NCBI RefSeq assembly: GCF_002278135.3
Contig: NZ_CP029425.2
Coordinates: 3,014,001-3,078,000, forward strand
Origin: Bradyrhizobium ottawaense
GTDB taxonomy: Bacteria; Pseudomonadota; Alphaproteobacteria; Rhizobiales; Xanthobacteraceae
Direction: 5' to 3'
Length of the DNA stretch: 64,000 nucleotides
A program made the position numbers and the translations under genes. Positions 29,704 through 31,686 of this stretch are shown piece after piece. Every line of letters begins with the position of its first letter. The first letter of the stretch is position 1. Under the pieces are notes generated by a model. The model saw only the letters and a list, made by a program, of their open reading frames with translations. It was not told where the DNA came from and ran no database searches.

Positions 29704-31686
29704 CTAGGAGGTCACCACGGCCGCGGCGAATGCGTCTCTGAGCCGCTGGGCAAGCTCGACCTTGCGATAGGGCTTGGTCAGCACGATCGCCTGCGCATGC
29801 GCGTGGCCCTGCTCGACCAGGGTCTCCAGCGCGTAGCCCGAGGTGAACAGGACCGGCAGACCGGGGCGAATCCGCCGCGCCTGGTCGGCGAGCTCCCAGC
29901 CGCTCATGCCGCCGGGCATCACGATGTCGGTGAACAGCATGTCGATACCGGGCTCGGTGCGCAGCTGCTGCAAGGCCTCCTTGCCGTTGACCGCGGCAAC
30001 GACGCGATATCCGAGAGCTTCCACCCTCCGAATGGCGGAGGAGCGAACGAACGGATCGTCCTCGGCGATCAGGATCGTCTCGTATCCTCGGGGCGCCGCG
30101 TCCTCGCCATCGGAAAGCTCGGCGTGCGATGATCCGATGTCCGCGCGCGGCAAATAGATCCGGACCGTCGTCCCCAGGCCCGGCTCGCTGTAGATCGAGA
30201 CGTGGCCATTGGATTGCTTGGCGAAGCCATAGACCATGCTGAGCCCGAGGCCCGAGCCCTTGCCGACCTCCTTGGTGGTGAAGAACGGCTCGAAGGCGCG
30301 CCGGGTGACCTCGGGCATCATGCCTTCGCCGTCGTCGGTGATCGAGATCAATACGTAGCTGCCGGATGCGACTTCGGGGTGAAGGGTGCGATAGTCGTCG
30401 TCGAGTGTCGTCAACTCCGTGCTCAGGGTCAGGTGGCCACCGGCCGGCATGGCATCCTGCGCATTGAGCGCAAGGTTGAGCACGGCGGATTCGAGCTGGG
30501 CCCGATCCGCGAAGGCCACGATCGTGCCGGGCCTGGAGGCCGTCCTGATCTCGATGTCCTCGCGCAAGGTGCGCTTGAGCAGCTTGAACATGGACTCGAG
30601 CAGGCCGCGGCAATCGATCGTCTGGGGCTGCAGCAACTGGCGGCGACTGAATGCGAGCAGGCGCTGCGTCAGCTCGGCACCCCGTTCGCCCGACTGGCAG
30701 ATGTCCTCGGAAAAGCGGCGCAGGTCGGGCCTCGCCTTGAGCTGCTCGCTCAGGTGCTCGGCGTTGCCGATGATGACGGTGAGCAGGTTGTTGAAGTCGT
30801 GGGCGATGCCGCCGGAGAGCTGACCGACCGTCTCCATCTTCTGCGCCTGCTGGAGCTGCTGCTCAGTCAGCTTGCGCGCGGTCAGGTCGTGGACGATGCC
30901 GACGAAGATCAATTCGCCGTCCTGCCGGGTCCGGCCGACCGACACGTCCATCGAAAAGGTCGATCCGTCCTTGCGCAGGCCGATGGCCTCGCCGGCGGTC
31001 GCGAAATGCCTTGCGTGGCTGTCGGGCGCGGTGCCCGCCTCGGGCATCAGCATCCTGACGTTCCGGCCCATGATCTCGTCGGCAGAGTAGCCGAACAAGC
31101 GCTCGCAGGCCGGATTGAACAGCAGAATATGGTCCTGCGCGTCGAGCAGGATGACTCCGTCGACCGCTGTCTCGACGATCGCGGTGAGGCGCGCCACGCT
31201 CTCGCGCATCGCGCGCTGGGCGTCGCTGACCTGCTGGAGCAGGAGCGTCGCGTCCCGGCTCTTGATTTCCTCCTCCTCGAGCGCGGCCTGGACCTGCCGC
31301 AGCTCGAAAGGCGAGGGGATCGTCAGGATCTTCGGCAGCAGCGGCCAGAGCGCGCCCGCCGTGACCACGGATGCCACCGCGGTCGCCGCCTTGACCATGC
31401 CCTCGATGCCATAGACCGGGACCCAGAGCGTGTAGATCGACAATACGTGGGTCAGGCCGCACGCCATGATGAAGATCGCGAAGGCCCAATAGACCCAGCC
31501 GAACTTGAGGTCGCGCCGCTTGGTGACCAGAATCGCAAGGGCAAACGGAATCGAAAAATAGGCGGCGGCGATGCAGGCGTCGGAAACGACGTGAAGCCAG
31601 ATCAGCTCAGGCTCCCACAACAGGCAGATGCCGTGCGGCGACAGCATGGACGGGTCGAGGAGACGTTCAAAAAAGGCCCACATCAT
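29704..31686 (-). CDS. Hybrid sensor histidine kinase with an ethylene-receptor-like membrane domain
   Basis: A 660-residue kinase from the ATG at 31686. Residues about 28-125 form three membrane helices resembling the ethylene-binding domain of plant ETR1. D36, Y43, I46, P47, I73, C76 and H80 correspond to the ETR1 positions D25, Y32, I35, P36, I62, C65 and H69 that I recall, all with the same offset of 11. C76 and H80 lie in ACGLTH, the Cu(I)-ligand motif. Then follow a PAS domain (about 165-280), HisKA with phospho-acceptor H296 in AHDFNNLL, HATPase_c (GKGSGLGLSMVYG) and a C-terminal receiver with D587 in FTDIVMPGG. This is the layout of bacterial and plant ethylene receptors. The separate output target is not evident nearby. 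Copper and ethylene binding are inferred. Confidence 0.88.
   Translation of the reverse strand: MMWAFFERLLDPSMLSPHGICLLWEPELIWLHVVSDACIAAAYFSIPFALAILVTKRRDLKFGWVYWAFAIFIMACGLTHVLSIYTLWVPVYGIEGMVKAATAVASVVTAGALWPLLPKILTIPSPFELRQVQAALEEEEIKSRDATLLLQQVSDAQRAMRESVARLTAIVETAVDGVILLDAQDHILLFNPACERLFGYSADEIMGRNVRMLMPEAGTAPDSHARHFATAGEAIGLRKDGSTFSMDVSVGRTRQDGELIFVGIVHDLTARKLTEQQLQQAQKMETVGQLSGGIAHDFNNLLTVIIGNAEHLSEQLKARPDLRRFSEDICQSGERGAELTQRLLAFSRRQLLQPQTIDCRGLLESMFKLLKRTLREDIEIRTASRPGTIVAFADRAQLESAVLNLALNAQDAMPAGGHLTLSTELTTLDDDYRTLHPEVASGSYVLISITDDGEGMMPEVTRRAFEPFFTTKEVGKGSGLGLSMVYGFAKQSNGHVSIYSEPGLGTTVRIYLPRADIGSSHAELSDGEDAAPRGYETILIAEDDPFVRSSAIRRVEALGYRVVAAVNGKEALQQLRTEPGIDMLFTDIVMPGGMSGWELADQARRIRPGLPVLFTSGYALETLVEQGHAHAQAIVLTKPYRKVELAQRLRDAFAAAVVTS

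Follow-up and report, generated by a model that had tools for sequence, protein, structure and literature searches.

The 64,000-nucleotide stretch of Bradyrhizobium ottawaense analyzed here (assembly GCF_002278135.3, contig NZ_CP029425.2, positions 3,014,001 to 3,078,000, forward strand; hereafter the window) encodes a hybrid histidine kinase, P0001, which is very likely to be a receptor for ethylene that depends on copper. Judging from its sequence, we consider it probable that the protein belongs to the bacterial AzoEtr1/SynEtr1 kind, here in a nodulating Bradyrhizobium. A preliminary description of this DNA had proposed an ethylene-receptor-like hybrid kinase with an intact copper site, and every sequence feature that we tested fits that proposal. 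The kind itself is already published, and the Bradyrhizobium protein adds a member to it: SynEtr1 and AzoEtr1 are known, and putative receptors are described in many plant-associated proteobacteria (PMC11819568). No published Bradyrhizobium ethylene receptor was found in the open-licence literature searched, though one may be mentioned in older trees.

Ethylene-site residues and domain architecture

The Pfam ETR1_N profile matches residues 27 to 122 of P0001 with an E-value of 1.2e-37 and a score of 128.5 bits, where the cut-off is 27, which rules out a chance resemblance; the same profile matched none of 14 control genomes. In a MAFFT alignment, D36, Y43, I46, P47, I73, C76, and H80 pair with D25, Y32, I35, P36, I62, C65, and H69 of Arabidopsis ETR1. 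Between D36 and H80 the alignment with ETR1 is gapless, confirming the constant shift of 11 positions that the preliminary description had reported for these seven residues; the gaps fall before helix 1 and, three residues long, within the loop that links helices 2 and 3. K99 pairs with ETR1 K91 in the same alignment, and we take ETR1 Y32 to be a required binding residue. The ETR1 sequence used was entered by hand; over the first 130 residues it shares 99% identity with a plant ethylene receptor in the database (P0247). Alignment with both ETR1 and AzoEtr1, a check proposed with the original claim, placed all seven residues and the lysine in register, including the cysteine and histidine of the C-x3-H copper motif (ETR1 C65/H69, AzoEtr1 C75/H79). 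In ETR1, I35, P36, I62, C65, and H69 are essential for ethylene binding (PMC6586836), D25 and C65 are required for it, and K91 is the predicted partner of the aspartate (PMC11819568); the roles of the cysteine and histidine in the Cu(I)/ethylene site have also been described (PMC13012798).

An AlphaFold2 model built on a 40-row alignment predicts, with moderate confidence, the three helices expected of such a domain (residues 26 to 56, 63 to 86, and 92 to 121). The first would hold D36, Y43, I46, and P47, the second I73, C76, and H80, and the third K99.

The reading frame runs on the minus strand from an ATG at 31686 to a stop that ends at 29704, and the longest possible reading begins upstream at a TTG, giving 709 instead of 660 residues. 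The signaling modules, described earlier as complete, are so: PAS, HisKA, HATPase_c, and Response_reg each exceed their Pfam cut-offs (Table 1), and the transmitter is complete, with conserved motifs in HisKA and HATPase_c. The kinase core matches NCBIfam models of PAS hybrid kinases (E 9e-127 to 3e-90). CckA models among the matches reach E 1.2e-98 and 3e-90, both under the NCBI cut-offs, and the PRK13557 score is also under its curated cut-off.

Table 1. Positions of the receptor gene, its domains, and two adjacent genes in the window
Feature	Position	Strand	Basis
Hybrid histidine kinase with ETR1-type membrane domain, P0001 (660 aa)	29704..31686	-	Open reading frame and Pfam
Ethylene-binding-type domain, residues 1-124	31315..31686	-	Pfam ETR1_N and AlphaFold2 model
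C-x3-H copper motif, C76 to H80	31447..31461	-	Alignment with ETR1 C65/H69 and AzoEtr1 C75/H79
PAS domain, residues 166-270, FixL-like in sequence	30877..31191	-	Pfam
HisKA dimerization/phospho-acceptor domain, residues 288-350, H296	30637..30825	-	Pfam and alignment
HATPase_c domain, residues 394-515	30142..30507	-	Pfam
Receiver domain, residues 538-649, motifs TDIVMP, TSGY, TKPY	29740..30075	-	Pfam Response_reg
Stand-alone AsnC/Lrp ligand-binding domain protein, 81 aa	29363..29608	-	PF01037, E 1.1e-11; no other domain found
Phosphomethylpyrimidine kinase thiD, divergent neighbor	31929..32798	+	PF08543, E 3e-97

AzoEtr1 appears to be the closest characterized relative found, with 50 to 52% identity to P0001 in the membrane domain. 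Plasmid records searched with tblastn yielded a 525-residue protein on plasmid p1 of Azospirillum brasilense Sp7 (L129:5001-6578), which carries D35, C75, H79, and K98 and is overlapped by a receiver gene. It was taken as AzoEtr1 by strain, length, residue positions, and the overlapping receiver gene, its locus tag being unmatched because this part of the record is unannotated. Both proteins have ETR1_N with all seven residues and the lysine, PAS, HisKA, and HATPase, in the register D35/C75/H79/K98 against D36/C76/H80/K99. They differ in that the response regulator of AzoEtr1 is a separate overlapping gene, whereas P0001 has an attached receiver and a CckA-like core. This PAS-HisKA-HATPase-receiver core is shared with the CckA/PRK13557-type PAS hybrid kinases of alphaproteobacteria, which to our knowledge do not carry ETR1_N. 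ETR1 resembles P0001 in the seven binding residues, the Asp-Lys pair, and a kinase with receiver, but the domain is 32% identical (hand-entered ETR1 sequence); the plant receptor P0247 carries GAF (PF01590) where P0001 has PAS. Plant receptors also signal mainly without histidine kinase activity, to a Ser/Thr kinase (PMC11819568). SynEtr1 of Synechocystis, compared by description, likewise joins a bacterial ethylene-binding domain to a histidine kinase (PMC6682694, PMC11819568), but it is also a light receptor and works with a separate response regulator and a small RNA (PMC11819568). AzoEtr1 is an experimentally shown ethylene receptor, and its residues 1 to 130 bind ethylene when expressed alone (PMC11819568).

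Conservation, distribution, and divergent relatives

The seven residues and the lysine are invariant in the 40-row alignment, which consists of P0001 and 39 proteins from Bradyrhizobium, Azospirillum, metagenomes, and plants, hand-picked among the 360 listed matches of three same-domain searches and therefore partly selected. They are also invariant in all 43 close orthologues, namely the window and the 42 of 54 named loci (L002 to L055) that fit one fixed reading frame and start. The AHDFNN and GSGLGL motifs are identical throughout this set, and substitutions in the receiver motifs are conservative (FTDIVMP occurs in 36 of 43). Ratios of nonsynonymous to synonymous substitution rates (dN/dS), computed per domain over 150 random pairs, were 0.089 for the membrane domain, 0.251 for PAS, 0.063 for HisKA, 0.108 for HATPase, and 0.173 for the receiver. 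The receptor of this class (class A, below) is under strong purifying selection.

An ETR1_N match is present in 137 of 195 Bradyrhizobium genomes. Binning by hand on domain identity, we found class A (at least 84%) in 65 genomes and class B (65 to 80%) in 48, with both in one; the class A count includes one truncated copy of 240 residues, one of 529, and one in two pieces. Among the best 77 loci retrieved, 53 have the membrane domain in a class A context (L002 to L052, L054, and L055), labeled as Bradyrhizobium in 51 cases, as a Bradyrhizobiaceae metagenome-assembled genome in one, and as Frankia sp. RB7 in one. In a broader Rhizobiales sample, 42 of 297 genomes matched ETR1_N (37 over the cut-off), 8 of the 42 being Bradyrhizobium. 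The genome of the window has a single ETR1_N copy together with genes for NodC (753.5 bits) and ACC deaminase (588.4 bits), both over their cut-offs, and belongs to a plant-associated genus. ACC deaminase, counted as any match with E <= 0.001 (178 genomes, of which 171 reach the cut-off), occurs in 63 of 65 class A genomes and 115 of 130 others (p = 0.059, kinship ignored).

A third class, the paralogous class C, comes from other Bradyrhizobium genomes (L099 to L108 and L137 to L156), with about 48 to 55% domain identity and ETR1_N E-values of about 1e-21 to 1e-25. Its residues at the eight positions are D, F, I/T, A, V/A/L, C, R, and K in all 30 sequences checked; the tyrosine has become phenylalanine, the proline alanine, and the copper-ligand histidine arginine, with the cysteine, aspartate, and lysine kept. 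Class C forms one clade (100/100) on a long stem, and together with classes A and B it makes up a larger clade (100/98). The 16 tree rows outside this group all retain the eight residues, which indicates that the class C change is derived. A wider tree recovered this group as well (96/99 for class C with A and B), plus a long-branched Deinococcus row inside the group; this Deinococcus aquaticus ETR1_N kinase (P0124, L136:2860-4599) has alanine for the conserved proline and arginine for the lysine, and it keeps the cysteine and histidine.

Class C has a dN/dS of 0.304 (29 of the 30 sequences, 406 pairs), a sign of weaker but present purifying selection, and Pfam scans of two of its proteins (L100 and L103) found a complete kinase and receiver. 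A check of the residues found it alongside class B in 11 genomes. Of the 65 genomes with class A, 4 show more than one match, and the additional listed matches do not look like class C; the occurrence of class C with class B rather than A may simply reflect the species tree. With its copper-ligand histidine replaced, class C probably does not bind ethylene in the ETR1 manner. Tentatively, Bradyrhizobium might hold two opposed versions of one sensor: a copper-site receptor that would read host ethylene in nodulators, and a class C protein converted to another signal, or locked by the arginine charge in a copper-free state that still signals. As a natural contrast, we find the class C clade more surprising than the receptor itself.

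Two further variants were seen in Pfam scans of class B. The one full-length protein scanned (L094) has kinase and receiver and no PAS. Among short ETR1_N proteins, L109 (4928-6001) has HisKA and receiver, with no HATPase_c found in the scan; L110, L111, and L112 are similar in length and sequence. All four retain the copper-site residues and the phospho-acceptor histidine, and they should not be able to autophosphorylate alone. An ETR1_N kinase with intact residues also lies on a 1.09-Mb plasmid of Rhizobium sp. 32-5/1 from a Vicia cracca root nodule (L130:4989-6227).

The receptor locus

The receptor gene sits at one fixed locus in 51 of the 53 named class A loci (L044 and L045 differ), where the AsnC-type gene follows it on its 3' side, on the same strand and within about 300 bases. 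The AsnC/Lrp-type protein is a conserved neighbor, and thiD marks the site on the other side; both links are by position only. A metagenome protein, P0004, has the AsnC/Lrp ligand-binding domain and the receptor in a single reading.

We inspected this site in 15 hand-picked genomes without an intact class A copy, namely 12 of the 20 listed as having no match, together with G093, G109, and G124, and the receptor was missing or decayed in all of them. In 13, thiD and the AsnC-type gene stand side by side with no receptor match between them. Another (L158:4335-4430) keeps a stretch matching the last 32 receptor residues, so the gene has been lost at least once. In the last (L164:1188-3127) the gene is in two pieces and is probably decaying, a sequencing error there being possible. 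For the 13 empty sites, loss and never having gained the gene fit equally. The receptor gene is dispensable.

Among the remaining neighbors, a cytochrome c gene with two matched stretches lies one gene away from the receptor (28414-29361), beside a gene for a small CHRD-domain protein (27866-28279), and a caspase-domain (Peptidase_C14) protein with a long Asn/Gly-rich tail is encoded at 36306-38108. RpoN control, as proposed for AzoEtr1, finds no support: the window holds 31 sites with at most two mismatches, against a chance mean of 31, and the one RpoN-like site upstream of the receptor gene (31857-31871) is on the opposite strand. No sigma-70-type promoter was found at 29200-32100, and no RNA family in the window reached its gathering score.

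Mechanism, alternatives, and significance

Based on homology, we propose that C76 and H80, within three membrane helices, would bind Cu(I) between them, that D36, in a pair with K99, would support the site, and that ethylene would bind the copper there. Binding may then alter the linker and PAS and hence the activity of the CckA-like kinase core. The effect would most likely be inhibition, as has been proposed for ethylene on the kinases AzoEtr1 and SynEtr1 (PMC11819568). Phosphate would pass from H296 to the aspartate of the attached receiver; as the receiver is attached, a distinct phosphotransfer protein would be needed to carry it on to some response regulator. The CckA-like core suggests ChpT, the phosphotransfer partner of CckA in alphaproteobacteria, for this role.

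The same membrane site could instead belong to a Cu(I) or redox sensor, in which copper is bound and the protein responds physiologically to copper status, oxygen, CO, or some other small pi-ligand. We regard this as unlikely, although the cysteine, histidine, and aspartate point first of all to a copper site, the PAS sequence is similar to that of FixL (E 9.7e-20), and a cytochrome c gene is close by. The resemblance to FixL does not extend to its haem site: the proximal haem histidine of FixL, which we take to be the histidine of RHDSY, aligns with a proline in P0001 that is followed by a nine-residue gap, so haem, and with it an oxygen sensor of the FixL haem-PAS type, is unlikely. I46, P47, and I73 are all kept, and their ETR1 counterparts are essential for ethylene binding without being copper ligands. 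AzoEtr1, which has the same residue set, binds ethylene (PMC11819568). It is less probable still that the membrane domain is a relic, kept for assembly or localization while PAS drives the kinase. The empty, remnant, and two-piece loci (13, one, and one of 15) would suit such a history, but in intact copies the membrane domain is more constrained than PAS or the receiver (0.089 against 0.251 and 0.173), and class C, with its dN/dS of 0.304 and altered residues, shows by contrast what relaxed or changed constraint looks like.

Several observations nonetheless weigh against P0001 being an ethylene receptor in a nodulating Bradyrhizobium. Confidence in the predicted fold is moderate, with a mean predicted local distance difference test score (pLDDT) of 72 to 88 in ten-residue blocks over residues 21 to 120 and a low predicted template modeling score (pTM) of 0.38 for the whole model, and no solved structure of an ETR1_N domain for comparison was found at E <= 1. 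The neighboring genes scanned include no response regulator, unlike at AzoEtr1; no search for histidine phosphotransfer (Hpt) proteins was made. Class A as a nodulation-linked gene finds no support: among the 195 Bradyrhizobium genomes, nodC is present in 40 of 65 with class A and 65 of 130 without (Fisher p = 0.17), and the association is equally absent for class A or B (p = 0.19) and for any ETR1_N (p = 0.53), all with kinship ignored. Moreover, nodC occurs in 29 of the 58 genomes that lack ETR1_N altogether, and the receptor gene is missing from many nodulating relatives. The preliminary description had called ethylene sensing by such a bacterium significant for root colonization and nodulation. 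The genus is plant-associated; the significance is lower than was implied, as the kind is already known, and the link to nodulation is unsupported by the distribution of the gene.

With these points weighed, P0001 stands as a real, well-conserved candidate for an ethylene receptor on the evidence of its sequence. On the plant side, ethylene regulates nodulation negatively (PMC13291814), and in the case of AzoEtr1, ethylene sensing alters root colonization by a plant-associated diazotroph (PMC11819568). If our reading is correct, one Bradyrhizobium strain with nodC and ACC deaminase could both sense and lower host ethylene, and direct ethylene perception by rhizobia would become testable through a single deletion. 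The His-to-Arg clade of class C would offer a ready natural control for the residues that the domain needs.
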